Below, piece after piece: positions 946 through 62,456 of a DNA stretch of 64,000 bases (position 1 is the first letter of the stretch; every line of letters begins with the position of its first letter). This stretch comes from Spisula solida (Eukaryota; Mollusca; Bivalvia; Venerida; Mactridae). Below the pieces are notes generated by a model. It worked only from the letters and a program-made list of their open reading frames with translations, had not been told where the DNA came from and made no database searches. The stretch is taken from positions 49,022,722 to 49,086,721 of the forward strand of contig OX365952.1 of NCBI GenBank assembly GCA_947247005.1, read 5' to 3'. The position numbers and the translations under genes were made by a program.

Positions 946-1099
946 CAGGGGCGTAGCCAGGCTTGAATTGATGTTACGCACACAAGCCTTGAAGGTGTAG
1001 GTTATGGTTGGGGATACTCATGATTGTGGAAATTTGGGACTTCAATGCCATTTTGGCAATATTTATATTTCTACTTTTCAAATTGATGTTACGCCCCTG
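946..1099. mobile_element. MITE family G (CAGGGGCGTAGC termini), copy 1
   Basis: Inverted termini CAGGGGCGTAGC / GTTACGCCCCTG, with the inner words ATTGATGTTACG also inverted or duplicated. It is flanked by a perfect 5-bp duplication CACGT (941-945 and 1100-1104). A second copy at 46711-47035 also has a 5-bp duplication (GCATT), which supports the boundaries. The CAGGGG ends look hAT-like, but hAT duplications are normally 8 bp, so the superfamily is left open. Confidence 0.8.
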
Positions 1100-1104
1100 C
1101 ACGT

Positions 1105-1666
1105 AATGGTATAATAAAACACCGCCGGGATATCGGAATTCTAGAATGTAGTTCCCATATTAAAAGGCAAATATGAAAAGTTGAACGAAACATTATAATG
1201 TGTTTGCACTAAAATACAATCAATAAACACAGATTGACCTTCCTATTTGATGACGTCAAAACATCAATGACGTCACGTGGTACGTGGCTTTTCTCGTATT
1301 TTAATAGTAACAATACGAGAATGTTCCCCTTACTAAACAAATTAACTAACTAAATAAAGATAATAAAACATGTGAGTGACGTTATTTTATAATTCAAATA
1401 GGGTCAGATAAGGCTCCACTTATTATATAAGAGTCGCATTCGACACTGAGTGACTGGTTAAAATTGAGGCCGAAAGTAGTCCTATGTCATGTAACCACAT
1501 ACTTTATTAAAGCTCACATGCTATACTATAATAAAACAAAAATTTACACGACGGGTCGCGTTCGACATTATAAAGGCTGTAGGATAAAAGTATGAACACA
1601 ACGATAGCGGAGTATTGGCACCGATGTGGGAGATATCTAGTGAATAGAATCGAACATGGAGTTAAC
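1105..1666. other. Spacer with paired CRE-like sites
   Basis: No gene seen. Two perfect TGACGTCA palindromes lie 17 bp apart (1251-1258 and 1268-1275), the second overlapping an E-box CACGTG (1274-1279). A 10-bp inverted repeat TTCTCGTATT / AATACGAGAA spans about 1292-1322. Without a neighbouring promoter a regulatory role is speculative. Confidence 0.3.
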
Positions 1667-1899
1667 TATACTCAGTACATTTAAAAACGCTCATTTTGCG
1701 TCATTAACTATTTCAGAAAGTATTATTTTACTTATTCTGACATACTTTATATAAAACCCCTGTAAATTTCAATAAACTAAAGCCAACGTGTTGCACAAAT
1801 GTAAAATAATAGTGTGTTAATGCTATTTGAAGCATTTTTAAGTAATTCAACAAACTTTCGGAAAATCTGTAGTGTGCGTTTTTAAATGTACTGAGTATA
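1667..1899. mobile_element. Foldback MITE with TATACTCAGTACATTT termini
   Basis: A perfect inverted repeat of about 24 bp starts TATACTCAGTACATTTAAAA at 1667 and ends at 1899; similarity continues inward through a TTTCAGAAAGT-like arm. It is non-coding. The TA-rich ends would fit a Tc1/mariner-type element, but the duplication cannot be separated from the terminus. Confidence 0.65.
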
Positions 1900-1914
1900 T
1901 TTACAATGTACATA

Positions 1915-2053
1915 TCGCTGGCTTAGAATAAGAAGGTCTTAAGTACTACTAAAAGCTTGTTTTTCCATAAGTAAAGAGTAGTTTTCGGACTGGTTTTTCT
2001 TGTTTCTTAAAAAATGATTTTGTACTTACGACCTTCTAATTCTAAGCCAGCGA
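1915..2053. mobile_element. MITE family B (TCGCTGGCTTAGAAT termini), copy 1
   Basis: Inverted termini TCGCTGGCTTAGAAT (1915-1929) and ATTCTAAGCCAGCGA (2039-2053). The flanks repeat AATGTACATA exactly (1905-1914 and 2054-2063), a 10-bp duplication that points to a Mutator-like origin (inference). The internal motif GTAAAGAGTAGTTTTC recurs in copies at 32914-33079, 40850-41352 and 55663-55850; the copy at 12083 is more diverged. Confidence 0.8.
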
Positions 2054-2063
2054 AATGTACATA

Positions 2064-3363
2064 TATAGCATTGGTGAAGTATTGTACTTGGTAGTAACTC
2101 GTTATGCTAAGGAATGATAGTTAATAAAATACCCATTGTTATTTTCAATAGTTTTATCACAACATGCATTGAATTGACACGATCTAATTGTATTTATAAA
2201 ATACCTATGGGATAAGAAAATGTATACGAAATGTAGTATTTCAGTTATGTAGGACTACAAATGTATTAATCTATCACGTTCTTGTTCACTCACAAAGTTA
2301 CCCGGTATTGTCATGTTTAAAATGATTACTGTTATCGTTTAAATGGTTTCATATCAAACTTTGTTATATGTTTTGTCATTCTTTTCATACCACACACAAT
2401 ACAATGACTTGACGAAATGAAAGATGATACGGTTTTATGTCTCAGTATGCTAGAGTTTATAGGCTATCAGTAAACAATATGTACATATTAATAAAGTAAA
2501 CGGGTGATTTATGAACATATATTTATTCAGATTTATGAAAAAAAGAAATATTAATCTACAAATCGTGTTAAGGAAAACTATAACAAGTTCTAGTAAACCA
2601 AATACAACCATTGTTTATCTTCTAGTTTAATCGTTTTACTACGGTTAAGTATTGTATTAAATCATATAAAGTACTCTAAGACTTTCATATTAAAACTATG
2701 TCATTGGCAATAAATAAAGAAACCTAGTTTAAAATGGAACACTTACCAGTGAAAGACAGTGGTAGTGTTATGACTTCTTCGAACTAAAATATATATAATT
2801 AAATCGTGCTTAAAGTTCAACCAAACAATGTATTATGGAATATTATAGTCTTTTCAAGCTAATACGGCAGCCAAAGAATACAGAATGGTTCTCATAGTTG
2901 GGTGCATAATTATGAGAGATGCGCGGTATAACCGGTATACCGGGATATCATTTTCCAGCGGTACAATATCGCGGAATCATAAAAATACCGGTATTTTACC
3001 AACATAATCACTGATCAGTCTAATTATTTAACAGCATACTATACCATACATAAGCTTTCCCCTTTATTGAAATCCCATTTCCAAGCTGTTATGTTTACTT
3101 TCTGGTAATTGCTTGCTGTGCAGTCCAGCATCAAGCGTTCTTTCTCGAATCAAGTTATTATTTTTAACAGTCTTATAGTTTAAGTAACGTAGTCATTGTC
3201 GTCGTTCTTAAAATAGCATATATGTGTTGTTTTCCCATTATATTCTGACCACTATACCATAGCTGTAAGTCCTAACATAAAGTTGGTGGTATACCATTGT
3301 ATTTGAGGAAAATATGTGGTGTACCCAGGTATCTTTTCTTTGAGGTCCCCATCCCTAGTTCAT
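2064..3363. other. AT-rich unannotated stretch
   Basis: No long open frame or RNA gene. Around 2920-2990 there is a cluster of CCGGTATAC-like palindromic words that may be the remnant of a TIR element, but no clear ends could be set. Confidence 0.4.
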
Positions 3364-3595: not shown

Positions 3596-3986
3596 TCACC
3601 ATCGATGCAGACGGTCTGGTAACGATTGATTAAAGAGTGATTCGTCCACGCTGATGGCTTGCCTGCATCCGAAATGATATTCCGAGTCTGCGTATGATTG
3701 TGGTGTGATCAAACGTATCACATGCTGTGATAAATCAAACACGATTTCCGTAAGTGCTTTGATAAAACAGTACTCTGGACCACATGGACCATTGAAATAC
3801 TGAACTGAAAAGCGGTCGTATTGCGCAGGCGGTGCGGTGGTCTGGTCGTTATAAACGGATTTTAATTGTGCTCTACTTACTGGGTTGGTGAAGAATGAAT
3901 TCAGCACGCGTCTGGCTTTGCAGATTATTGGGACAGGATTAAAATCGCGTAAGACACGTGACGAGACATACGACCAAGACTGAAGT
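3596..3986 (-). CDS. Unrecognised open exon-like frame ending in MITE sequence
   Basis: On the minus strand an acceptor-like TTTATTTTAG precedes an open frame of about 129 codons ending at TGA (3598-3596). The first half (for example SVYNDQTTAPPAQYDRFSVQ) has protein-like composition. The middle is different: the residues YCFIKALTEI are encoded by bases that match the family C MITE terminus (3737-3775), so the C-terminal half may be transposon-derived rather than native. No domain is recognised and no upstream exon was located. It could be a genuine terminal exon captured by a MITE, or chance openness. Confidence 0.3.
3737..3775. mobile_element. MITE family C terminal fragment
   Basis: CCGTAAGTGCTTTGATAAAA followed by CAGTACT matches the right terminus of the complete family C copy at 15693-15932. 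Only about 35 bp are left and no opposite terminus is visible nearby. Confidence 0.55.
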
Positions 3987-4251
3987 CTAAAATAAAGTTT
4001 ACCTAACCTTCGATTTAAAATCTTGTCGAGTAAGTAGTCAAAATCTTGACCTCAACTGACCTCAAAATCGTCGTATCATCGCCGTGTTGAGGGGAGCTAC
4101 GCGTGGGGTATTTGAACATATTTGACAGTCGACGATCGGGAGTATAATCTCTTAATAACGCTTTGCTTGTCTATGAACCTGATAACACGCTCTCATTATT
4201 AGATTATCAACTGGCAAAAGCGTATTTAGTCGTTCCAGCATCTATAGACCA

Positions 4252-4402
4252 GGGTACTGTTCTATCAAAGGACTTACGATCACATTTAAACTATTTATAA
4301 TTTGTTTACAATTATAAAGCGTGGTTAATGGAGCTGCAATACTAATACTGATTTTGTTAATAAACTCCTACAAACTATATCCATCACCAATTTGCAGTCG
4401 GT
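4252..4402. mobile_element. MITE family C, truncated copy (left part)
   Basis: It begins GGGTACTGTTCTATCAAAGG and continues collinearly with the complete copy at 15693 through AATGGAGCTGCAATACTAAT and ACTCCTACAAAC; the right inverted terminus is missing. It lies inside the putative intron between 3418 and 4845. Confidence 0.7.
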
Positions 4403-4469
4403 ATGATAACACATCGTACATGCATGATTCAGGTTCTGAAAATACTACAAGCTAGATTGTACGGATTGT

Positions 4470-4612
4470 GTCTCCGTAGCTCAATGGTTAGAGCTCTTGG
4501 CTTCTAATCTGGCGACCCGGGTTCATATACGGGTGGAGGCGCTCATATGCCTGCCATATTTCAGCAGAAAGCTGACTGGCAAATAAAGGCTATGCTCGGC
4601 ATTTAAAAAAAG
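4470..4612 (+). repeat. tRNA-derived SINE, family S1
   Basis: Contains an A-box-like TAGCTCAATGGTTAGAGC and a B-box-like GGGTTCATATAC in tRNA-like spacing, followed by a non-tRNA body (CAGCAGAAAGCTGACTGGCA) and a 3' A-rich tail. A related copy in the opposite orientation lies at 34603-34724. The internal pol III promoter and body identify it as a SINE rather than a functional tRNA gene, since the cloverleaf is incomplete. Confidence 0.7.
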
Positions 4613-4844
4613 AAATTATAATCTGGCGTGCTGCATTATGCTATCATACCGATATTCGCGCAGACATTATTCTGGGTATACATGATAAAGGTAAATAGGC
4701 TCAAAATTAAATATGTCTGTAAGCCCATGCTCGAATTTGATAACACCATACTAGTATTAGTTAGTCAAAGAGAGAAACGTTATTGTTAACGGCATACCTG
4801 TTTGGAAAGCAAATAATGTGATTTCGAGTTGTTTTGTTAATTAG

Positions 4845-5173
4845 GGCAAATAAACTCACACATTGAAGAAGTGCTCAACTCAGACCAGCCAAGGGTTTAC
4901 ATGGTCCCATGCTGGTTAAATGATAATGCGTCTTCACAAAAGCAACAGTTATACGCCACTTTCCTACTTTCTGAAAAGGGAAACGGTCAACAAGTTAAAC
5001 TTCCTTCCTACGTATTCATCCGGCCTTGTCGCTTGTTTCTTATATCTGCTTCCAAGAATCTTTACAAAACATTGCTGGATGAAAATATCAAACACCTGCA
5101 GTCTCTTGTACGTGGAGAACATCTCGGCAGTTGTTTACATTGTATTTCCAAGGAACTTTTGTGCAATAACTAA
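4845..5173 (+). CDS. Candidate terminal coding exon, unrecognised protein
   Basis: After the acceptor GTTTTGTTAATTAG (AG at 4843-4844) a frame of 108 codons runs to TAA at 5171-5173. The first two bases complete a codon, matching the phase-1 donor at 3418. The protein has a balanced, non-repetitive composition (for example SDQPRVYMVPCWLNDNASSQ near its start) and five cysteines, including a CLHC motif near the C-terminus. No family is recognised. No other exon was found nearby, and a family A MITE begins 53 bp after the stop. This is one of the more convincing host coding segments in the window, but it rests on frame and splice consensus only. Confidence 0.4.
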
Positions 5174-5225
5174 AGACATTACCGAGCTATTAGTTCTTAC
5201 GGTAACTTCACCATCTAAAGTCTAT

Positions 5226-5441
5226 GTCACACTGAGGAATTCCACATCGGCGATGTTCTCCTGATATCTTCAGACTCCACCGATTCATCATGATTTCTTC
5301 CGATATCACAAATTGTCTCATGACTTCCCAGAAGCTTCCCTATATCACGAGGAACCTATTCCCGATGTCTTGATAACTCATTAATGAACATAGGGAGTAC
5401 ACCACCGAGGCCAAAAATCATCCTCAGTGAGACCTAGGCTT
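5226..5441. mobile_element. MITE family A, copy 2 (degraded left end)
   Basis: The right terminus CAGTGAGACCTAGGCTT has one change from the family terminus; the left terminus is decayed to CACACTGAGGAATTCC. The interior GGCGATG and CCCGATGT words match copy 6 at 54434 in the same orientation. Confidence 0.7.
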
Positions 5442-6114
5442 GAGGTTCCAGGTCTTATGTTGGTCCCAGGTGTTTGGGGACAATTTTATTCCTGTTTAGT
5501 ATCTGATCAACTGGACTAGTAAGCTTAAAACACGAGATAGATTCTCTTTCATTTCTAACAATATCACAAGATGCTACGATATAACAAGATATCTGACGAC
5601 TTAAGGTAAACTTTATTCGCACACTTTAGATAACACTCTAGTTTATATTTGCGGTATGTGATCAATGTGTGAATGGTATGTGTTACTGTCACCAGTGCTA
5701 TATAGTTACCTATCGTATCCGTGGATCACTATAATTAAAGTACCATGCAGAATGCGACCTCCTCCACGATTTCTTAATTTTAAAGATTTTATTATTTGTC
5801 GTTGTGTGTTAAACATTGTTTGATTTAGGTTTTAATTCTAACAACCACTGATTTGATTCGATAAAATTTGTCCTTAGGAATATCAGATTCTTCTTGTTCG
5901 TTGATGTCTATTTTCATGGCCAACTATGTGCACTCGAAGAGTAAAGTGTTGTCTAGGGACCTATCCTGGTCCGATAAACAGTATATAACGTTATTGTTTT
6001 CTGCTGTTTTATTTATTAAATTTTAATTGTGTTTTAACTTTTAAGGCACAACGGCAGCGAGGGTATTTTAGCGCGCATTAGCAAGTTATTATGATGAGTA
6101 TAAATAGTTACATG
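5442..6114. other. Unannotated stretch
   Basis: No frame, repeat or RNA gene could be supported here. Confidence 0.45.
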
Positions 6115-6186
6115 ACGGGTGTTTAGGGTATCCGCCTTGGAAGTGGGAGATCGAAGGTTCGAATCTCGACTGAAGCTGGGTTATAA
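6115..6186 (+). repeat. tRNA-like SINE head, family S4
   Basis: GTTTAGGGTATCCGCCTTGG followed by GAAGGTTCGAATCTCGACT gives the A- and B-box arrangement of a tRNA-derived sequence. The acceptor stem does not close and no body shared with other copies was found, so I call it a SINE or tRNA pseudogene fragment. Confidence 0.5.
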
Positions 6187-6190
6187 CAAA

Positions 6191-6703
6191 TGCGGTCGCT
6201 TAGTGAGCAACCAGCTAGTAACAGAATGTTTTCCAAATTCCAATATCGTTCAAAGTATTAATGTTTTTGCAATATAATTTTACATGTGTATTAAATGATC
6301 TTTCATACGTGTTAATTAATTGATACATATGTAAAATTACATTGCAATAACATAAATACTTTGAGCGACTTTGAATTAGGTGAGGCGTTTTTAAAGTCCT
6401 TGAGTGTATAAGAAAAGAAACCGAGTATTTCATATTTTCAAAATTTGATATCAGAGAGAAAAAGATTAGAAGAAATACAGGTACTAGCATTTACAAAAAA
6501 TAAAGTTGACAAGCACATTGAAAAATGTTTTTTTTGTAATGGATTTTTTTCTCTATTTTTTGTAATGGCTTTTTTCATTTTTACTATAGTTTCCCTTTCG
6601 TCTTGATTTTTTTGTCTCTATCATTCCCCCTAACTATTTCTTTATTAAATACAGTTACTTTACATGCACTAATACATTTATGTTGTTATATATACACACG
6701 GTC
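6191..6703. other. AT-rich unannotated stretch
   Basis: Contains T-rich runs around 6520-6620. The minus-strand open frame at 6215-6490 has low-complexity AT codons and no recognisable features. Confidence 0.4.
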
Positions 6704-6730
6704 TATATATATATATATATATATATATAT
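6704..6730. repeat. (TA)n microsatellite
   Basis: About 13 TA dinucleotides. It is the target into which the family H element (6731 onward) inserted. Confidence 0.9.
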
Positions 6731-7072
6731 GAGCCAGTCTACAGGAAAACCTGCTATAATGACATTATGTAATTACTATAATTTTATGTAACAAGATTTT
6801 GATACAGCTCTAAAATAAGGAAAAATACATATCTATTGATTCTATTTTAAGTAATTGACCCATATAGTACTATATCTTAGCTTTAAATTTTCCTATGAAT
6901 TATGTCGAAAACACATACTTGGTTGCTATGGTGACCAATTTCAGAAAAGTATTCCGATTGAGAAAAACGAGGATTTAGTTGTTTAAAACAGAAGTAGCCT
7001 TTCTCTGAATGCAAACAATTTCGATTTTGATATATGTTTTGAAAAGTGAAACATAATTATAGAATTTGGTAC
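6731..7072. mobile_element. TIR element family H, left part, split by the LTR element
   Basis: The left terminus begins GAGCCAGTCTACAGGAAAAC (6731). Its partner, ending in GATTGGCTC at 11712, lies on the far side of the LTR retrotransposon; the two ~33-bp termini differ at four positions. Removing the insertion restores an element of about 615 bp in TA-rich flanks. Related termini occur at about 19391 and 62425-62455. It has no coding capacity. Confidence 0.75.
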
Positions 7073-7469
7073 TGTCGCGAAGATCGCGAATAGTATCATT
7101 ATACATGTTGTTAACTTGTTTTTTTACTTTGCTCCTTATTGTCTTCTTCTTTAGGTTGCTCCTAAATGTGTATATATATGTTCATTGTTCTTCATTGTGA
7201 CTTTTCTTTGCTCCTGATGCTCCTAACGTCCTAATTCTGCCACTGATTTCACATGGTTCATGCTTCCTTTGTGGCGGGGACTTTGGCTATAAAAGCGTTT
7301 GTCTCTTATTTTCTCGCTCTTCTTCTTATGTCAGTTGTTATCATGATCCATGTTGGATTGTTTTATGATTTTATACAATAGGAATAAATAATTCGATGTA
7401 AATTCAGTGTTAGTTGTTTAAATCGTTATTAATAAAAATATGGAACATAAAATGGTACAGTTTGCAACA
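7073..7469 (+). repeat. 5' LTR
   Basis: 397 bp, starts TGTCGCGAAGATCGCG and ends TTTGCAACA. It contains a TATAAAA box (7288-7294) and two AATAAA signals (7383-7388 and 7431-7436). It differs from the 3' LTR at five substitutions with no indels. Confidence 0.95.
7288..7294 (+). promoter_or_regulatory. TATA box of the LTR promoter
   Basis: TATAAAA preceded by CTTTGGC in the 5' LTR; the same box is at 11254-11260 in the 3' LTR. AATAAA follows about 90 bp downstream, which gives the expected U3-R-U5 order. Confidence 0.65.
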
Positions 7470-7474
7470 CTGAT

Positions 7475-7492
7475 TGGCGCCGGAACCCGGGA
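7475..7492 (+). other. tRNA primer-binding site
   Basis: TGGCGCCGGAACCCGGGA lies five bases after the 5' LTR and starts with TGG, as expected for pairing with a tRNA 3' CCA. It matches the complement of the usual animal tRNA-Phe 3' end at 16 of 18 positions from memory, so tRNA-Phe is a possible primer but not proven. Confidence 0.75.
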
Positions 7493-7505
7493 GGAAGAGC
7501 AAAAA

Positions 7506-10140
7506 GGATTTAAAAGAAAGTTCGTTAAAGTTTAATGGAATTTAAAGTGAAATTCCAAGTTGGATTTAAATGAAAGTGTGTTAAAATTTCATGGAATTTA
7601 AAGTGAAATTCCATAGTTGGATTTAAAAGAAAGTTTGTTAAAATTTCATGGAATTTAAAGTGAAATTCCATAGTTGGATTTAAATGAAAGTGCGTTAAAA
7701 TTTCATGGAATTTAAAGTGAAATTCCAAGTTGGATTTAAATGAAAGTGCGTTAAAATTTCATGGAATTTAAAGTGAAATTCCAATTTGGATTTAAAAGAA
7801 AGTTCGTTAAAGTTTAATGGAATTTAAAGGGAAATTCCAATTTGGATTTAAAAGAAAGTTTGTAAAAGTTTCATGGAATTTAAAGTGAAATTCCAAGTTG
7901 GATTTAAATGAAAGTGCGTTAAAATTTCATGGAATTTAAAGTGAAATTCCATAGTTGGATTTAAAAGAAAGTTTGTTAAAATTTCATGGAATTTAAAGTG
8001 AAATTCCATAGTTGGATTTAAATGAAAGTGCGTTAAAATTTCATGGAATTTAAAGTGAAATTCCAATTTGGATTTAAAAGAAATTTCGTAAAAGTTTCAT
8101 GGAATTTAAAGTGAAATTCCAAGTTGGATTTAAATGAAAGTGCGTTAAAATTTCATGGGATTTAAAGTGAAATTCCATAGTTGGATTTAAAAGAAAGTTC
8201 GTTAAAGTTTAATGGAATTTAAAGGGAAATTCCAATTTGGATTTAAAAGAAAGTTTGTAAAAGTTTCATGGAATTTAAAGTGAAATTCCAAGTTGGATTT
8301 AAAAGAAAGTTCGTTAAAATTTCATGGAATTTAAAGTGAAATTCCATAGTTGGATTTAAAAGAAAGTTCGTTAAAGTTTAATGGAATTTAAAGGGAAATT
8401 CCAATTTGGATTTAAAAGAAAGTTTGTAAAAGTTTCATGGAATTTAAAGTGAAATTCCAAGTTGGATTTAAATGAAAGTGCGTTAAAATTTCATGGAATT
8501 TAAAGTGAAATTCCATAGTTGGATTTAAAAGAAAGTTTGTTAAAATTTCATGGAATTTAAAGTGAAATTCCATAGTTGGATTTAAATGAAAGTGCGTTAA
8601 AATTTCATGGAATTTAAAGTGAAATTCCAATTTGGATTTAAAAGAAATTTCGTAAAAGTTTCATGGAATTTAAAGTGAAATTCCAAGTTAGATTTAAATG
8701 AAAGTGCGTTAAAATTTCATGGGATTTAAAGTGAAATTCCATAGTTGGATTTAAAAGAAAGTTCGTTAAAATTTCATGGAATTTAAAGTGAAATTCCATA
8801 GTTGGATTAAAAAGAAAGTTCGTTAAAATTTCATGGAATTTAAAGTGAAATTCCATAGTTGGATTTAAAAGAAAGTTCGTTAAAGTTTAATGGAATTTAA
8901 AGGGAAATTCCAATTTGGATTTAAAAGAAAGTTCGTAAAAGTTTCATGGAATTTAAAGTGAAATTCCAAGTTGGATTTAAATGAAAGTGCGTTAAAATTT
9001 CATGGAATTTAAAGCGAAATTCCATAGTTGGATTTAAAAGAAAGTTTGATAAAGTTTAATGGAATTTAAAGGGAAATTCCAATTTGGATTTAAAAGAAAT
9101 TTCGTAAAAGTTTCATGGAATTTAAAGTAAAATTCCAAGTTGGATTTAAATGAAAGTGCGTTAAAATTTCATGGGATTTAAAGTGAAATTCCATAGTTGG
9201 ATTTAAAAGAAAGTTCGTTAAAATTTCATGGAATTTAAAGTGAAATTCCATAGTTGGATTTAAAAGAAAGTTCGTTAAAATTTCATGGAATTTAAAGTGA
9301 AATTCCATAGTTGGATTTAAAAGAAAGTTCGTTAAAATTTCATGGAATTTAAAGTGAAATTCCATAGTTGGATTTAAAAGAAAGTTCGTTAAAATTTCAT
9401 GGGATTTAAAGTGAAATTCCATAGTTGGATTTAAAAGAAAGTTCGTTAAAATTTCATGGAATTTAAAGTGAAATTCCATAGTTGGATTAAAAAGAAAGTT
9501 CGTTAAAATTTCATGGAATTTAAAGTGAAATTCCATAGTTGGATTTAAAAGAAAGTTCGTTAAAGTTTAATGGAATTTAAAGGGAAATTCCAATTTGGAT
9601 TTAAAAGAAAGTTCGTAAAAGTTTCATGGAATTTAAAGTGAAATTCCAAGTTGGATTTAAATGAAAGTGCGTTAAAATTTCATGGAATTTAAAGCGAAAT
9701 TCCATAGTTGGATTTAAAAGAAAGTTTGATAAAGTTTAATGGAATTTAAAGGGAAATTCCAATTTGGATTTAAAAGAAATTTCGTAAAAGTTTCATGGAA
9801 TTTAAAGTAAAATTCCAAGTTGGATTTAAATGAAAGTGCGTTAAAATTTCATGGGATTTAAAGTGAAATTCCATAGTTGGATTTAAAAGAAAGTTCGTTA
9901 AAATTTCATGGAATTTAAAGGGAAATTCCATAGTTGGATTTAAAAGAAAGTTCGTTAAAATTTCATGGAATTTAAAGTGAAATTCCATAGTTGGATTTAA
10001 AAGAAAGTTTGTTAAAATTTCATGGAATTTAAAGTGAAATTCCATGTGGGTTAAAGTTTCGTGGAAGTTAAAGTGAAATTCCAAGTTTGTTTTAAAGAAA
10101 GTGGGGTAAAGTTTCGTGGTATTCTAAAGTTTGATTTAAA
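7506..10140. repeat. ~57-bp minisatellite array inside the LTR element
   Basis: About 46 head-to-tail units of 56-57 bp, each with GGATTTAAAAGAAAGTTCGT followed by TAAAATTTCATGGAATTTAA and AGTGAAATTCCATAGTT. Each unit holds an inverted repeat TGGAATTT-(6)-AAATTCCA able to form a hairpin. Variant units recur with long-range order: a ten-unit block repeats 564 bp on (7861 and 8425), and a twelve-unit block repeats 680 bp on (9041 and 9721). The plus strand is stopped in each unit. The minus strand is open for up to 147 codons only because 57 is divisible by three, so it is not read as coding. Confidence 0.95.
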
Positions 10141-10185
10141 AGGGGAGATATAGTATTAGCGCTTGAAAGGGCAAATCTACCTTAC

Positions 10186-11019
10186 TTGAAGGGTGTTCGA
10201 ACCAGGTATACGAATACCTTGATTAAGGAGATAAGTATGGGTAGAAAATTCTTGGAAAAGGGAATAATTGAGAAGGTACATAGAACAAGTGCTGATGGAA
10301 TTAAACACTACATTCCACACCACGTTGTCATCAGTCCTCAGAAAACTACGACGAAACTTCGTGTAGTAAATGACGCATCAGCCAAAACTAAAGTTGAAAA
10401 TCAAAGTCTAAATGAGTGTTTGTATAGGAGTCCTGTCTTACTTCATGACCAATGTGGCATGATATTGCGATTCAGACTTCATCCCATTGGTATAGTTGCT
10501 GACATTGAGAAGGCCTTCCTACAAGTAGGTTTACAGCAAAGTGAGAGGGACGTAACACTGTTCCTTTGGTTTAAAAACATTGACCAACCTTGGGTAAATG
10601 ATCAAAATATTCAGGAATTCCGTTTCTGTCGTATCCCTTTCGGTATCATTTCCAGTCCGTTTCTACTTGGTGCGGTGATTGAAAGTCACTTAGATTCTTA
10701 CCAAACCGAAATAGCAGAGAAACTCAAAACCGATATATACATGGACAATGTCATAACAGGAACAAAAACTGTTAATGATGCTGTGGATCTTTATCGAGTA
10801 GCAAAGTCAATATTCGATGAAGCTAAGATGAATCTTCGCGAGTTGAAAACTAGTAATACAGAAGTGAACAATGTTATTCCAGATACTGATATCGTCAAGG
10901 AAGAATGTATGAAGGTCACCAAGAAGAATGTTCTAAAACAGGTTGCCTCAGTGTTTGATCCTCTCGGTCTTTTCTCACCTGTTACTCTACGAGTTGAAAG
11001 AGACTATTTCAGACTGTAA
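10186..11019 (+). CDS. BEL/Pao reverse transcriptase fragment
   Basis: 277-codon frame that stays open upstream to the array edge; 10186 (TTG) is only the first start-like codon, so this is the remainder of a polyprotein. It covers the RT fingers and palm: YIPHHVVISP, a LRVVNDAS motif, the first catalytic Asp in VADIEKAF (D106), the RIPFGIISSPF block, then YMDN at residues 185-188 where the family has YxDD. It ends with the VASVFDPLGLFSPVTLR region typical of BEL/Pao between RT and RNase H, then stops 19 bases before the 3' LTR. RNase H and integrase are absent. The Asp-to-Asn change corresponds to a single G-to-A change and probably inactivates the polymerase. The conserved frame suggests recent loss. 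Confidence 0.9.
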   Translation: MKGVRTRYTNTLIKEISMGRKFLEKGIIEKVHRTSADGIKHYIPHHVVISPQKTTTKLRVVNDASAKTKVENQSLNECLYRSPVLLHDQCGMILRFRLHPIGIVADIEKAFLQVGLQQSERDVTLFLWFKNIDQPWVNDQNIQEFRFCRIPFGIISSPFLLGAVIESHLDSYQTEIAEKLKTDIYMDNVITGTKTVNDAVDLYRVAKSIFDEAKMNLRELKTSNTEVNNVIPDTDIVKEECMKVTKKNVLKQVASVFDPLGLFSPVTLRVERDYFRL

Positions 11020-11023
11020 TTTA

Positions 11024-11038
11024 CCTTTGTGGCGGGAA
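11024..11038 (+). other. Putative polypurine tract next to the 3' LTR
   Basis: CCTTTGTGGCGGGAA ends exactly at the 3' LTR. The purine part GGCGGGAA is short for a polypurine tract. The same 15 bases occur again inside the 3' LTR at 11232-11246, which may reflect duplication or the internal deletion event. Confidence 0.4.
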
Positions 11039-11435
11039 TGTCGCGAAGATCGCGAATAGTATCATTATACATGTTGTTAACTTGTTTTTTTACTTTGCTC
11101 CTTATTGTCTTCTTCTTTAGGTTGCTCCTAAATGTGTATATATATGTTCATTGTTCTTCATTGTGACTTTTCTTTGCTCCTGACGTTCCTAACGTCCTAA
11201 TTCTGCCACTGATTTCACATGGTTCATGCTTCCTTTGTGGCGGGAACTTTGGCTATAAAAGCGTTTGTCTCTTATTTTCTCGCTCTTCTTCTTATATCAG
11301 TTGTTATCATGATCCATGTTGGATTGTTTTATGATTTTATACAATAGGAATAAATCATTCGATGTAAATTCAGTGTTAGTTGTTTAAATCGTTATTAATA
11401 AAAATATGGAACATAAAATGGTACAGTTTGCAACA
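11039..11435 (+). repeat. 3' LTR
   Basis: 397 bp, matching the 5' LTR at 392 positions. It is followed directly by the target duplication GGTAC (11436-11440). Confidence 0.95.
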
Positions 11436-11440
11436 GGTAC

Positions 11441-11712
11441 TTTTTTGAACAATTTATGTCAAGAATTGATCAAATGGTGTAATTATAAAAGTCTTGTTAC
11501 AGTGACATCGAATAACGTTCCAATGACGTTTGCGACGTCACACAAAAAGCAACAAATAGGGACTTTACAAAAATAGCTTAACTTTGTTAAAATTCAAGAT
11601 ATTAACAAAATTTCTTTTGCATTTTGGTTCATTAACATTATCCTTTAATACTATGGAAAATCTCAAAATCAATATTTTTGTCAAAATAGCAGGTTTTCCT
11701 GGAGATTGGCTC
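11441..11712. mobile_element. TIR element family H, right part
   Basis: Continuation of the element starting at 6731. The right terminus runs GTCAAAATAGCAGGTTTTCC to GGCTC at 11712. The plus frame at 11584-11790 crosses this boundary and is not considered coding. Confidence 0.7.
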
Positions 11713-12082
11713 GTATATACATATATATCTCAATCCATAATGTTTTCATTAAATATGCATGTACATATAGTGAAACTATATCAGGGATAAAAGTTAAATC
11801 AAATAGATAAGGAGCATACTCTCTCACTTATTAGCCTTTTACAAACATTCAAAGAGTGAAACAGAGATCCAACTGTAACACGGGAACCACGCGGGGTTTT
11901 CTTTTGTAGTCGTGTTTGCATGGGCCTACTATAAATCCACAGTCTCTCACCGTTGCAGATTTGAACCAAAGTGGAAATGTGTTAGTGAGTCAGAGGATCC
12001 GTACATGTTCCAGACTCGCAACATGTTAACGTGAATTGACGTTATAATGAGTGGCATTAGTGAGTACTCTTCTCTTACTATC
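11713..12082. other. Unannotated spacer
   Basis: No supported feature. Confidence 0.45.
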
Positions 12083-12972: not shown

Positions 12973-13567
12973 CAACACGTTATATATGTTGTAATGGTTG
13001 TATTAATTGTTGTAACTTTACAACTAATGATTTATTGTATTTGTTAAGTATTACTTGAAACCCACAATTTAATCCGAACCTATAGTACCTCATATAAAAA
13101 GATCGCTTTGTGAATGGGTGGTGTTCTTTTCCAAACCACGCCCCCACCACTCAAAACTGTAGTTTAACACATATTTGTGATCTACGTCATGATTAAATTT
13201 ATTAATTAACGATTATTCAATACAGTGATGTTCTTAAAAAGCAAGTCGCAACTACCCATAATAATGTTTAACTTTAGACAGACGTAAAGCTGTGGTCCAG
13301 TATAACAGAACTTCAAGGGGATAAGACAAGGCGCACTTTATGAATACATGTAGTTTAGAATTGCCTATAAATATGCTATATAATAATTTATATAGAAATG
13401 AATTAGGAAATAACAAACATGTAGCGGTGCTTTGTTGTGTAATAAAATATACATGCAAGGACGAGTTTGGATGCGTAAAACAACGAGTAAATTCATTTTG
13501 GGACCAGTCATATCTTCTCGCATAATCTAAAACGGTAAGTTCCAACAAATATAACATAAACTACTGA
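12973..13567. other. Unannotated stretch
   Basis: Two overlapping short open frames on opposite strands (13252-13557 and 13340-13525) show no recognisable motif; neither is supported. Confidence 0.4.
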
Positions 13568-13830
13568 ATGCCTGGGCTGTATTCGTCCGTTACGATACCC
13601 TACGAGAGCATCTATTGTTTGCCTGCGCTGTATTTGTACGTTGCGATACCACACTAGAGCAGCTGCTGATTGCCTGTGCTGTATTCGTCTGTTGCGATAC
13701 CACACGAAAGCAGCTACTGATTGCCTGTGCTGTATTCGTATGTTGCGATACCACACGAAAGCAGCTACTAATTGCCTGTGCTGTGTTCGAACGTTGCGAT
13801 ACCTAATGAGAGAAGCTACTCTTCGCTATA
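13568..13830. repeat. 51-bp minisatellite, about five units
   Basis: Units contain TGCCTGTGCTGTATTCGTCT, GTTGCGATACCACACGAAAG and CAGCTACTGA. The flanking units are more diverged. The period is a multiple of three, which explains the overlapping open frames on both strands. Confidence 0.9.
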
Positions 13831-14180: not shown

Positions 14181-14311
14181 GTAATATATCATATACAGAC
14201 TGTTTGAATATTTTATACTTATAAGTTATAACATTCATAGGAATGTCGTTTTTATGTTTACATGTGTACATGTTGGCACCGTCAATATAGGAGAACTAAA
14301 TTCTGGATGCC

Positions 14312-15097
14312 TGTCGTATCTCTATGGGAGTCACACGATAATCGGATACCGGTCGTATCTCTATGGGAGTCACACGATAATCGGATACCGGTCGTATCTC
14401 TATGGGAGTCACACGATAATCGGATACCGGTCCTATCTCTATGCGAGTCACACGATAATCGGATACCGGTCGTATCTCTATGCGAGTCACACGATAATCA
14501 GATACCGGTCGTATCTCTATGGGAGTCACACGATAATCGGATACCGGTCGTATCTCTATGGGAGTCACACGATAATCGGATACCGGTCGTATCTCTATGG
14601 GAGTCACACGATAATCGGATACCGGTCGTATCTCTATGGGAGTCACACGATAATCGGATACCGGTCGTATCTCTATGGGAGTCACACGATAATCGGAAAC
14701 CGGTCGTATCTCTATGGGTGTCACACGATAATCGGATACCGGTCGTATCTCTATGGGAGTCACACGATATTCGGATACCGGTCGTATCTCTATGGGAGTC
14801 ACACGATATTCGGATACCGGTCGTATCTCTATGGGAGTCACACGATAATCGGATACCGGTCGAATCTCTATGGGAGTCACACGATAATCGGAAACCGGTC
14901 GTATCTCTATGGAAGTCACGCGATAATCGGGTACCGGTCGTATCTCTATGGGAGTCACACGATAATCGGATACCGGTCGTATCTCTATGGGAGTCACACG
15001 ATAATCGGATACCGGTCGTATCTCTATGGGAGTCACACGATAATCGGATACCGGTCGTATCTCTATGGGAGTCACACGATAATCGGATACCGGTCGT
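14312..15097. repeat. 39-bp minisatellite, about 20 units
   Basis: Units read GGTCGTATCTCTATGGGAGT then CACACGATAATCGGATACC, with few variants. Because 39 is a multiple of three and the unit has no stop in several frames, it gives long open frames on both strands (up to 302 codons). These are repeat artefacts: they overlap each other, carry no flanking coding context and their starts lie in unique sequence. Confidence 0.95.
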
Positions 15098-18877: not shown

Positions 18878-19390
18878 TTAACAAAATAGTGAATGCCGGG
18901 CTAGTACAGAACACACCATCCCTAGGGGATGGGTTCATGTATCATAAACAAATTTCACGGTTATGTATATAAACAACAATTATTTACGGTATTTGATTAT
19001 TACATAGCATTTAATCAAGAGGTCGATTACATCTAGAATCATACATTTTCCCTACATTACAAAGAATTAAACAAAACAAATTAGTTATTACAGAAACAAT
19101 TATATAAACTGTAAACTGTATAAAATATAATATAAATGAAGTTGAGTATAGTCCTTCAAAACTTATCAAACAATCTATGGTCGACCTGAAATAATCTAGT
19201 GTAGGTCGTGTTACACTATGACGTCATAATAATTATTATGTTAATGTCAGTTTGTTATATAACGACTTATTTAAAAACGTAACATCATATCATGCAACTT
19301 TATTGAACTTAAAATATACAATCGTTACGAAACATATATCGTGTTGAGGAAATAACGTACGTTTAAAGAACATATAAATTAGAATTGATA

Positions 19391-19430
19391 TTAGCCAGTC
19401 TGCAGGAAAACCTGCTATTTTGATATTCCC
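19391..19430. mobile_element. Family H terminal fragment
   Basis: TAGCCAGTCTGCAGGAAAAC followed by CTGCTATTTTGA matches the terminus at 6731; the rest of the element is not evident. Confidence 0.55.
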
Positions 19431-20029: not shown

Positions 20030-21451
20030 AAAGTGCCATATAACCCACATACGTTTTAGTACGCAACAGGTGTACAAAGGCTATCGACTAATCAACAAGG
20101 TCATATGGTACAATGAACAGTGTCACGTCGGTCTAAACAGGGTCATGTCAGACATTCACTGATGTCACTCGTGTTATTATCTATGTCACTCTGTATTATT
20201 ATGTGCTTACTTGACTTTTTACGTGCTTTAATTTGAAAAAATCTTAAAAATCTATAAACATGAATATTTTCTCCAGTAACATTCCACAGCACATCACATG
20301 TTGTCATCTTTTGCTGACAATGTCAAGTTTCCTTGACCAATAAATAACTCATCCATAAGTCGGGATACTCGGCCTTATCAGCCTTCATTAGACTACTTCT
20401 CACTTCTTCATGAAAACCAAATGATTATACTGTACATTACGGACACACGGAACATACTGTTAGTGTTGACTCTAGATTATCGCTACCCTCGAGTTCTCTA
20501 AACAGCGTTCCTGTACATAACCTGAGTTGTCCCACATCTACTTGTGATTCAAGTAAGAACATTTACTGAACACTATTTGATCAGTGACTGATCATTGATG
20601 AACAATTTTGGAAAATACTAACTGAGACAAAGGAATCTAGTATATCGTAAATAGTTTAAAACATTCATACATATGTATTATAAGTATTTTGACATTGAGT
20701 CATTTTGTTTTGTAATATAGTATACGCACTGTACAAGGTTTTATGCGCCTTATAATGTACTCGCTAACGCCCGCTATCTTTATAATTCTTGAAGAAAACG
20801 TTTAATAAACTCAAAGATCATATAGAGTATTCTTTGATAAATTTGAACCTGTACTAAGAGATGTAATGACTTTTGTAATATCACATTGTAAAATATTAGC
20901 ATGGACACTGTTTCGGATAGGTACACATGCGAACATGATTGCTAATGTCTAAATGTGTTGCAGTAGTTGTGTCTTCATAGATATTTCACTCATATTTTAA
21001 TGTAACCTTTCATGCGCTATTTAAACTTATAAATCTTTAAACAAACAAGCAACAGTCTGACTTAATGTGTATCTAAATACGGGTAGTTGGCTCTTTCGTT
21101 TGAAGCAATAAAACCCGACATTTTAAGTTCAAACGTACGATCACTAGGTGTTATATAACAGTTCCCGGGCGTGAGGAGGCTTAAATATATATTAAAGACA
21201 TGCATTGGTGACAGTTTATCTCTAGTGCGGCGCAACTCAATTAGTTTACCCACTCTAATATAATTTATCACTTTTCACTCTGCTAATTCCTGATATGTGT
21301 CGGACAAACTTTCACGCACAAAACATTTACATTGTAGATGCTGTCAGAACATTAAAACAGATGGGAAGTGGGGAGAAATTAAATAAATTTAACGGTTGGA
21401 TGCGATATTCTTTTCAACCCCCGATGGGCAAGTACTGTGTTTATGCGACAG
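20030..21451. other. Unannotated stretch
   Basis: No repeat pair, RNA gene or convincing frame. The minus frame at 21062-21271 has no recognisable feature. Confidence 0.4.
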
Positions 21452-21800
21452 TTGGCATTGTGCCTTGTATGTTTGGTTATGTTTTCTGTGCTCGGCTGGT
21501 TAAGTTGGGCATTGTACCTTGTATCTTTTGTATGTTTTCTGGCTCGGCTGGTTCCGTTGTGCACTGTGCCTTGTATGTTTGGTTATGTTTTCTGTGCTCG
21601 GCTGGTTAAGTTGGGCATTGTACCTTGTATCTTTTTTATGTTTTCTGGCTCGGCTGGTTCAGTTGTGCATTGTGCCTTATACCTTTTGTATGTTTTCTGT
21701 GCTCGGCTGGTTAAGTTGGGCATTGTGCCTTGTATGTGTTTTATGTTTTCTGTGCTCGGCTAGTGAAGTTTAGTACTGCCTTCCATGTCTGTCTCAGTAT
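21452..21800 (-). repeat. Dispersed family D element with ~53-bp tandem array (six units)
   Basis: Units contain GGGCATTGTGCCTTGTATGT and TTTTCTGTGCTCGGCTGGTT; alternating variants give a ~105-bp dimer (21507 and 21612). The array ends in a tail TACTGCCTTCCATGTCTGTC. The same unit plus tail occurs as one or two copies at 22750, 44959, 51901, 53492 and 56210, so the tandem unit is part of a mobile or dispersed element. The open frames across it are repeat artefacts. Confidence 0.85.
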
Positions 21801-34545: not shown

Positions 34546-34602
34546 CCACTGTATCTGACCAAGATGGCGGCCATTAGTTCGAGAGAGGTGATGTTCGTTT
34601 GC

Positions 34603-34724
34603 AGAGCAAAGGCTTTATTTGCCAGTCTGCTTTCTGTTGAACTATGGCAGACATATGAGTGTCCACCTGTTCTTGAATCCGGGTCGCCAGATTAGATGAC
34701 AAGCGTGCTAACGGAGACACATCG
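34603..34724 (-). repeat. SINE family S1, second copy
   Basis: On the minus strand TGTGTCTCCGTTAGCACGC, TCTAATCTGGCGACCCGG and CAGACTGGCAAATAAAGCC match the copy at 4470-4612 in order. Confidence 0.75.
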
Positions 34725-38622: not shown

Positions 38623-38992
38623 ACTTTGTCTGTGTTTTCTGTAATACATACAATATGACAAAACATTGAGTAATGAACACAGTTAAACATACTATCATCA
38701 AGAGTGTGATTATATAGTCCAATACACAGAGTTAACTCCCATGTTTTCAGTCACATGTTCCAATACTAATATAAACATGCAGTGCATGAACAAGGGATTT
38801 CAGTGTTCAAAGAGATATATTTCAATGCTGATCCTAAATGTCATATCAGATGTTCCATAGAATGGGTTTTGGATGTGCCTGCATTTCTTCATTATGTACG
38901 GCAAACAAATTCACTATAGGGCAATAGTCTTGAGTTATGTCTAGGCCACTTGCCCTTTGCGACGAGGTCAATTGTCAGTACTTTCGTGCATA
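38623..38992. other. Unannotated stretch
   Basis: Possible interior of the element starting at 38591, but no transposase frame is readable. Confidence 0.3.
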
Positions 38993-39145
38993 CTTATCCT
39001 GATTTTGCTGCTGATTTGTACGAACTTATCCTGATTTTGCTGCTGATTTGTACGAACTTATCCTGATTTTGCTGCTGATTTGTACGAGCTTATCCTGATT
39101 TTGCTGCTGATTTGTACGAACGTATCCTGATTTTGCTGCTGATGT
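38993..39145. repeat. 32-bp minisatellite, about five units
   Basis: CTTATCCTGATTTTGCTGCT followed by GATTTGTACGAA, nearly identical units. Confidence 0.92.
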
Positions 39146-40849
39146 GTTGTAATAAGCGTTTTCTGCTTTCTTATAAATGCTCACACACCAAATGACGTTG
39201 ATATATATCTATACACGTATCTATGAACATTGGATTTGAATAAACGCTACTATTCATACTATAAATAGGCCTACCTGTTGCCCTTACTAAGCTTTTTTGT
39301 TGTTTGTTCTCAACAATATTTATCCGGTGTAATTTACTTCATTGGTGATTGTTGACGATTCTCTGTAGATGTATGCTTCTGTTTTGTTTAATAAACTCAC
39401 CACTTTCTCCCATCTTTCATTATTTCATCACAAAGTGCTTTGATTTTAACACCGTTTTTAATCACCTCTTAGACCCAAAACCCTGTTTTCTCAAAATGAA
39501 TGGTCTCTTTTCTATTGATGTCATTATTGAGGTGAGTCAGCAAAAGAAATGACGCCATTAAAAGTGGAGATCACTTTTATACACTTTCACAAAACAGTAG
39601 TCAGATTCATTAATCAAAGTACTGAAGTACTGGTTCTTGGGGGATATCGCAACTCTTGGTATTATCTATAATATTTAATATAAGTTTACATCATTCAGAT
39701 CTCACCAAACGGACCCATCATGGCAATCCTAATGGCAACGGCCTAGTTAAGCTGAAAAAACGTGTTAGAAAGATTAAGAATAACAGTAAATGGTAATATC
39801 ATGCAGCTGCACACAAAAAAACGTTTGACTATAGCTAGTAAACAAAAGTAATATAAGTAAATCTAATTGGATAACGGATGAATGGGCGCAAAAATATGAA
39901 AAATAGCACCAAAAACTACACTAAGTCGTAATTACATAACTCCACAGCTGCATTATAAACGAACCGCATATAATGTGAATTGCGCGAACGAATCAGATTG
40001 GGGATGAAAGAAAAATCGATAGACATGGTCTCGAATCTGGAAGGGAAATTTGTATGGAATGGGCGGTTGTTTTAACGATATACGCAAACTATGTCCCTGG
40101 ATATATGTTGTAAATTAATTGACACAATGTCGATCGAACCTTTAAACAGGAGGCACTAGAAAATAAAACAAAACTAGCAATTAAACTACACAAAATCCAA
40201 ATTCCATATACTTAAATTCTAGCTGCATACGAACTGGATATGGTACGAGTAGCGCGAACGATTCAGAATGGGGACGAATCCAGTATGGTCTCGATCTCGG
40301 CGGGAAATGTATAAACAACAGCGCTTGGAAAAGGGTTGTTCTAAAAATAGACGCAATATATTTAGCTGAATATCTGAGGTAATATTATGGATAAAACGAC
40401 GATCAATACTATTAACAAATGCAAAATATTGTAAATAGTGAAAATAAGCACACATTATAATAGGAGTTTTTAGCTAAATTGTTATATGAACATTATGAAA
40501 CCAAAGAGTGTAAATTTCGTCTGCCCAACCGTTTACTTTAACAGTGACATTTTTATCACCCCTCAAAATTCATTAGTCAATTTACAGCGCGTAGGAATTT
40601 ATTCGCGCAGATACATTAAATCACAGAAACAAACATTCCAAATTATCTCGCAATACAATGAAGTAAAAAATAATTCAATTGCCAGAGACAAATATTCTTA
40701 AAAATGATTGAAAATTATGATTTTGGTTGAGATTGGCTGGAACTCGTTTCTTGCTCGGATGAATTGGTTGTGGAGAAATTACATGGTTAAAATCGTAGTG
40801 ATTTCTGGATTGTATGTATAAGCAATACTTGGGGGTAAAAAAGGAATTA
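39146..40849. other. Unannotated stretch with a diverged local duplication
   Basis: Segments at about 39955-40110 and 40220-40340 share GCGCGAACGA, ATGGTCTCGA and GGGAAAT words in the same order, suggesting an old duplication about 265 bp apart. AAGAATAACAGTAAATGGTA near 39778 also occurs near 44631. No gene seen. Confidence 0.35.
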
Positions 40850-62149: not shown

Positions 62150-62456
62150 TTTTCAAATATCTATCAAACTGGGTAATATTCGTATTTGGAGAAAACTATG
62201 ACTGTTTAAAACAGCCAACTCTGTTTTATCGATATACGTTCTTTTATAGAAATTGGTCACTATAGTGACGAAGCTAGTTATTTCAATATAATGCATGAGC
62301 AGTGTTTAGATGTTTGCTATGTAATTATAATATTAGACTTGCATTTACTTAGAATTGAATCAAGAGATATGTCATTTTATTCTTATTTTAAAGCGTTTAC
62401 AAAACCTTATTACATACAATCAGTATCAGGTTTTCCTGGAAACCGATTCACCATTT
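62150..62456. mobile_element. Diverged family H relative
   Basis: The right end ATCAGGTTTTCCTGGAAACC matches the inverted family H terminus. Inside, CACTATAGTGACGAAG and TGTTTAAAACAG correspond to CTATGGTGACC and TGTTTAAAACAG in the copy at 6905-6995 in inverse orientation. The left terminus was not found. Confidence 0.45.

Follow-up and report, generated by a model that had tools for sequence, protein, structure and literature searches.

What does it mean when an LTR (long terminal repeat) retrotransposon carries a long minisatellite in the place where its first genes would be expected? The question is raised by an element in the bivalve Spisula solida, found in a stretch of 64,000 nucleotides that we analysed as a whole and call the window (C10:49022722-49086721; contig OX365952.1, assembly GCA_947247005.1). 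The original prediction, made from the letters of the window, was of a non-autonomous BEL/Pao derivative whose gag and protease region had been replaced by the array, and which could spread the minisatellite by retrotransposition and so offer a route from transposon to satellite DNA. We are highly confident that the copy in the window arose by deletion within a small BEL/Pao family and is non-autonomous, and that each of the 11 family copies found with 5' internal sequence carries a leader minisatellite of 57-bp units between the primer binding site and gag. The features of the window copy, 4363 bp in total, are the following (PR, protease; RT, reverse transcriptase; ORF, open reading frame; labels beginning with L denote individual loci).

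7068..7072, target-site duplication GGTAC, left, a perfect match to the right one
7073..7469, + strand, 5' LTR, TG...CA, 397 bp, with TATAAA at 7288 and AATAAA at 7383 and 7431
7475..7492, + strand, primer binding site, starting 5 nt past the 5' LTR
7506..10045, + strand, 5'-leader minisatellite of 45 units by direct splitting, 44 of 56-57 bp and the last of 53 bp
10046..10131 (end approximate), + strand, decayed edge units of the array
10135-11019, + strand, ORF of 294 codons with RT (PF00078, 1.8e-11) and positions 1-26 of the 162 of PF05380 (Peptidase_A17)
10168..10253, + strand, gag N-terminal remnant, its presumed start codon lost here and kept in nine other aligned copies
10253..10254, + strand, gag-PR deletion joint, in frame, where ~2.24 kb found in longer copies is missing; common to L010
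10254..11019, + strand, RT and the beginning of Peptidase_A17; ~78 bp are deleted in frame near 10916
10993..10994, + strand, pol 3' deletion joint, ~3.96 kb gone (rest of A17 to integrase, and the 3' ORF); identical joint in L010 and L013
11030..11038, + strand, presumed polypurine tract TGGCGGGAA
11039..11435, + strand, 3' LTR, 397 bp
11436..11440, target-site duplication GGTAC, right

The two LTRs align without gaps and are identical at 392 of 397 positions, a divergence of 1.26% (95% limits 0.4-2.9%), and 13 bases separate the primer site from the array. The primer site is identical among the ten copies shown, bar one base in L011, and we take it to resemble the complement of the 3' end of tRNA-Phe (16 of 18 positions by eye). 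Tandem Repeats Finder (TRF) gives the array a copy number of 44.9, and the decayed units beyond it reach a local score of 52, against at most 22 in 300 shuffles. The original prediction therefore described the element correctly in its LTRs with five differences, its GGTAC duplication, the spacing of primer site and array, and the RT fragment; the array and its unit length of ~57 bp also stand, with 45 units rather than the ~46 then counted. No second copy of the LTR or of the internal region was found within the window at an E value of 1e-3. A 15-bp sequence, CCTTTGTGGCGGGAA (11024-11038), which includes the presumed polypurine tract, recurs within the 3' LTR at 11232-11246.

Judged by comparison with the other copies, the ORF is a gag remnant joined in frame to RT; its start had also been read as a pol linker, a reading rejected on alignment with the other copies, which shows gag. 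The best 120 of 540 protein relatives of the ORF are RT-type fragments, 42-68% identical, and those with names come from bivalves (Mercenaria, Mytilus, Ruditapes, Crassostrea), hydrozoans and a coral. Most of PF05380 is missing from the window copy, as is the RNase H-integrase part. It does not have the complete gag and pol of an autonomous element, since gag-PR, part of pol and the 3' end of pol are deleted. Nor is it a terminal-repeat retrotransposon in miniature (TRIM): at 4363 bp, with 397-bp LTRs and an RT remnant, it falls outside the limits of less than ~1 kb and terminal repeats of 100-250 bp given for that class (PMC6934838; here and below, statements on published work refer to the portions of each paper available to us).

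Four probes, for the LTR, the array unit, RT and the start of gag, were run against the genome assembly (36 contigs, 932 Mb). The search scores the best candidates only, and its counts are lower bounds. The LTR probe gave 30 matches. Eighteen of these make up nine two-LTR elements, three come from a further element, at C10:44.43 Mb, in which the 5' LTR is split, four are single LTRs (with matching 5-bp flanks in L017, L018 and L020, absent in L019), one belongs to a copy at C16:29.64 Mb, one is a rearranged half LTR on C1, and three are weak (67-74%), their sequence not retrieved. The 5' LTR of L022 (576-636 and 2024-2381) is interrupted by ~1.39 kb with a flanking 21-bp duplication. There are thus ten two-LTR copies including the one in the window, and nine of them have perfect and mutually different 5-bp duplications (GGTAC, CCATA, AGGGC, CTGGC, GCTGT, GTGGG, GGCAG, GTTAC, GGGTA); these nine have the ends expected of BEL/Pao elements, namely two LTRs, TG...CA, and a duplication within the range of 4-6 bp.

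The array lies directly past the primer site in all 11 loci that retain the 5' internal region, the ten two-LTR copies and the C16 copy, so the array travels with the element. The genome search with the LTR had been set beforehand as the check on this point, and it returned insertions with different target duplications, all with the array. The copies sit at different sites, and the array occupies the same place in long and short ones. In the C16 copy, primer site and array are present, and no 5' LTR was found in ~8.5 kb upstream; the sequence upstream of the primer site in this copy (L024, reverse strand, from ~8573) is not LTR. Either the 5' LTR was lost or an incomplete reverse transcript was inserted. 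The unit probe matched within the 11 loci only (50 matches listed, 11 candidate places). The RT probe found nine of the 11, plus two relatives at 69-70%, and the gag-start probe likewise nine, the window copy and L010 excepted. RT differs by 0.9-2.6% among nine copies. A scan of viral contigs with RT, the unit and the start of the LTR gave no match.

Two long copies show what the window copy has lost. These are L015 (C6, 8.77 kb) and L016 (C3:52.85 Mb, 8.55 kb, LTRs 0.24% apart), and in both the array, of 7 and 4 units, sits between the primer site and gag. Past the array, L016 encodes in order a DUF1759 gag, CCHC, a DUF1758 protease, RT, PF05380, integrase H2C2, rve and DUF5641; the pieces were scanned separately, CCHC and rve score below curated cut-offs, and RNase H has no match of its own. 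With that proviso for RNase H, the single-region order gag-PR-RT-RH-IN of BEL/Pao elements is seen at the level of the family, through L016. RT followed by the Pao-specific PF05380 is found both in the window copy (positions 1-26) and in L016, where PF05380 is complete (positions 1-162, 1.8e-48). As the array lies upstream of gag in the long copies, it is an old leader repeat, and gag-PR was lost by a separate deletion. The 3' region of the long copies has features of its own: L016:7331-8491 is a 3' ORF whose 386-aa product has a C2H2 zinc finger (PF00096, 1.3e-6), and 219-bp tandem repeats are found at L016:7680-8308 and at L015 7522-8588 (element strand), with 2.9 and 4.9 copies.

Placed on L016 coordinates, the deletions of the window copy are 1062-3304 (gag-PR), ~78 bp near 3968, and 4123-8088 (the rest of pol and the 3' ORF), the last joint being positioned through its identity with L013. 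All three deletions recur in L010 (C15, 2.8 kb, duplication AGGGC), which has 17 units where the window copy has 45. The two are 98.9% identical across 898 bp from the gag remnant to the 3' LTR, and a tree of RT from nine copies pairs them with support of 0.96. Since three deletions are common to two insertions with different duplications (GGTAC and AGGGC), the derivative itself has moved; a non-autonomous form has transposed as such (n=2, window copy and L010). These common deletions, and the array in every two-LTR copy, bear out the part of the original prediction that had a non-autonomous BEL/Pao derivative spreading a minisatellite by retrotransposition. The joint at 4123-8088 is found in L013 exactly as in the window, L009, L011 and L014 have a pol 3' joint a few bases off, at 4129-8093, and L012 and the C10:44.43 and C16 copies have other deletions. 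Two near-identical joints of ~4-kb deletions, each at short matches, might reflect recurrent template switching at one imperfect repeat or a later change.

The arrays themselves differ widely among copies. Counted as 52-bp cores with at most 11 substitutions allowed, the 11 copies hold 45 (window), 18, 17, 15, 14, 11, 7, 7, 7, 4 and 1; the single core is that of L009, which has a perfect target duplication. As its place is fixed and its unit number variable in all 11 loci that keep 5' internal sequence, the leader repeat has the properties of a hypervariable minisatellite. The 146 cores fall into 61 kinds, of which 11 are found in two or more copies, and no run of kinds in common exceeds three cores; a coarser splitting of ten copies gives 73 pieces, 13 in common, again with runs of three. 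The decayed 3' edge, by comparison, is much alike in the ten aligned copies, shortened in L009 and L012. The common edge together with the differing kinds inside indicates that the array is common by descent and that its interior has been rearranged faster than the rest. Unit number shows no significant correlation with LTR divergence (rho -0.37, p 0.33; n=9) or with length without the array (rho -0.48, p 0.19; n=9), L009 being entered with 2 units.

These observations would fit a history in which the leader repeat was already there when the copies seen today began to spread. Its unit number would change fast, through slippage or strand transfer in reverse transcription or through unequal exchange in DNA, so that each insertion would get its own array. 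Deletions would arise by template switching at short matches, and the derivatives would move with proteins from relatives. That the window copy depends on a relative's proteins is plausible.

The origin of the array in the window could be told in other ways. Had it replaced gag and protease in one non-autonomous lineage, as originally predicted, one would expect what is seen in the window copy and L010, where the array stands directly before a short gag remnant and RT. This replacement is refuted by the long copies, however, and L009, L011, L013 and L014 likewise keep the gag-PR stretch, downstream of the array, so that we give the idea almost no weight. The array does not resemble gag-PR either: the protease part of two relatives has no tblastn match to it at an E value of 1, and the best match between L016 gag-PR and the array DNA is 40 bases long with E 0.016, so an origin from gag-PR code was rejected. 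When the 120 RT-type relatives were compared with the element, 236 of 360 tblastn rows lay within the array (4 plus-strand, best E 0.005); we attribute these to chance, the repeat being rich in A/T. A protein search with an ORF on the minus strand of the array gave nothing at E 0.01 among 7991 scored candidates.

It is also very improbable that the array expanded only after the window insertion, or that a host satellite was inserted into a finished copy. With 45 cores the window array far exceeds every other, the next having 18, and it contains recent block duplications, one of 666 bp with 3 differences, its copies 680 bp apart, and one of 421 bp with 1 difference, 564 bp apart. Set against the LTRs, the blocks differ at 4 of 1087 positions versus 5 of 397 (one-sided Fisher p 0.06), not significant, and the proposal that they are younger than the LTRs was set aside. 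Against post-insertional origin stands the same location of the array in all 11 loci. Its units, moreover, diverge by a mean of 6.4% and at most 17% (990 pairs of 52-bp cores), about five times the LTR divergence of 1.26%. When the array was simulated as growing from a single unit after insertion, the mean of 6.4% was reached in 0 of 300 runs at a divergence of 1.26% and in 0 of 300 at 2.9%. Since the simulations never reach the mean, unit diversity predates the window insertion, unless array and LTR mutation rates differ. As for a host satellite, all 50 unit matches listed lie inside the 11 element loci, and among them no free satellite of this unit, in arrays outside the element, was seen. 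The same result withdraws support from the predicted route from transposon to satellite DNA. Only the excess length of the window array may be post-insertional.

Several points weigh against our preferred account of an old leader repeat carried by a family of deletion derivatives. The search may have missed copies. The C10:44.43 Mb copy has an LTR at both ends and the array, and its flanks do not match; the C1 locus, L023, a half LTR beside an inverted piece of the 3' part, has no array. An uninterrupted gag-pol frame is absent from both long copies, and hence an active helper is not seen. In the simulations, the largest pair distance of 17% was reached in 0 of 300 runs at 1.26% and in 3 of 300 at 2.9%, so that the extreme alone is a weaker argument than the mean. 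Growth after insertion may account for part of the window array, and slippage in reverse transcription and unequal exchange both fit the change of the arrays.

A different matter is whether the leader repeat does anything for the element. A role in cis is possible. The unit holds the palindrome TGGAATTT-6 bases-AAATTCCA. That the array is a selected multi-copy cis signal, of packaging hairpins or protein-binding sites, with more units favouring derivatives, we consider unlikely. The array is kept by all deletion classes seen, although its position beside the primer site may suffice to spare it. Minor alleles are scarce in the palindromic stem, at 19 of 2096 versus 293 of 4716 elsewhere (131 units, ten copies), and 1038 of 1048 stem cells pair; when the stem geometry is slid along the unit, 21 minor alleles are counted one base off and 69-171 elsewhere. 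The contrast drops to 19 of 2096 versus 65 of 3799 (summed) without the seven commonest variant sites, however, and the units in these counts are not independent. Folding of three leader stretches is no better than that of dinucleotide shuffles (z -0.8, -0.7 and -1.7; for the last, 10 of 200 shuffles folded equally well), and L009 has its perfect target duplication despite a single core. On the other side, the 3' ORF of L016 has its C2H2 zinc finger, and the two relatives at 69-70%, L050 (reverse strand 2443-2527) and L051 (L051:3895-3942), have another tandem repeat, palindromic and of 16 bp, TGATAAAAAGTGTCAT, immediately upstream of gag; this repeat folds better than base shuffles. These two relatives were set aside as array-free outgroups; because their LTRs were not found, they test little. 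A more specific proposal is that the tandem palindromic units (8-bp stem, 6-base loop) beside the primer site act as a multi-copy cis signal for Gag or for the element's zinc-finger protein, that their expansion improves parasitic derivatives as templates, and that related BEL/Pao families have evolved other palindromic leader repeats for the same purpose; this we regard as decidedly unlikely.

Around the element, the window contains a MITE-like element (miniature inverted-repeat transposable element) that hosts the LTR insertion, with these ends.

6715..6764, left inverted end of the MITE-like element
11679..11728, right inverted end, 88% to the left end

A third end-like copy lies at 19388-19427, and the left half has a 69% relative at 62150-62420. 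At 4470-4541 there is a tRNA-like match (RF00005, 33.7 bits; none by ARAGORN) that overlaps a dispersed repeat, found again at 34600-34712, and it is probably a tRNA-derived SINE (short interspersed nuclear element). Other minisatellites in the window are at 14305-15097 (39 bp x 20), 13561-13820 (51 bp x 5), 21450-21770 (53 bp x 6) and 38992-39147 (32 bp x 5).

Repeats in the 5' untranslated region (UTR) of BEL/Pao elements, and the dispersal of minisatellites by LTR elements, are already in print, and the arrangement described here is of a known sort. Closest in structure is Achilles, a BEL/Pao element of the olive fly, whose 5' UTR, from LTR to ORF, contains direct and indirect repeats; according to the authors, structures of this kind are common among BEL/Pao and Gypsy elements (PMC4580426). 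It shares with the Spisula family the combination of BEL/Pao affiliation and 5' UTR repeats and differs in its insect host. In Culex, 38 non-autonomous families have tandem repeats between their LTRs (for example 46 bp x 58 and 44 bp x 67), with LTRs more than 98% alike, a primer site and, where determined, duplications of 4-5 bp; a putatively active element of the Mag lineage, cqgypsy_24, has tandem repeats in its 5' UTR, in a region of ~3 kb, and spread of repeats through passive retrotransposition was proposed (PMC3286476). For the Culex families no coding parent was found, they are unclassified, and their repeats are described as not family-specific, whereas in the Spisula family parent copies, position and deletions can be traced and the repeat was found, among the matches listed, in this family only. 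Plant Ogre/Tat and Retand elements are also LTR elements with tandem repeats in non-coding sequence (PMC3305785, PMC11963269); in Ogre/Tat they lie 3' of pol, are hypervariable in Ogre, and gave rise to satellites in Lathyrus (PMC7004042). Those elements are Ty3/gypsy with the repeats 3' of pol and many copies, unlike the BEL/Pao family of Spisula with its 5' leader array, 11 copies and no free satellite found. Among bivalves, the Cg_HINE Helentrons of the Pacific oyster are non-autonomous and spread short satellite-like arrays (PMC7492417); the likeness lies in host class and manner of spread, and the difference in their being Helentron DNA elements, not LTR elements. Many satellites of oysters are related to transposable elements (PMC11136912). 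The available portions of accounts of bivalve TRIMs (PMC6934838), mollusc LTR elements (PMC6238403) and D. virilis (PMC12910113) describe no BEL/Pao leader array, and we recognised none for a mollusc BEL/Pao element among the listed matches to literature on BEL/Pao with minisatellites or leader repeats.

The Spisula family thus offers a clean, small example from an animal: its leader minisatellite can be traced through long copies and several deletion classes. An array beside missing genes need not be their replacement; here longer relatives show loss and array to be separate events. In this family retrotransposition scatters arrays of very different length and, at the sensitivity of our search, has formed no free satellite.

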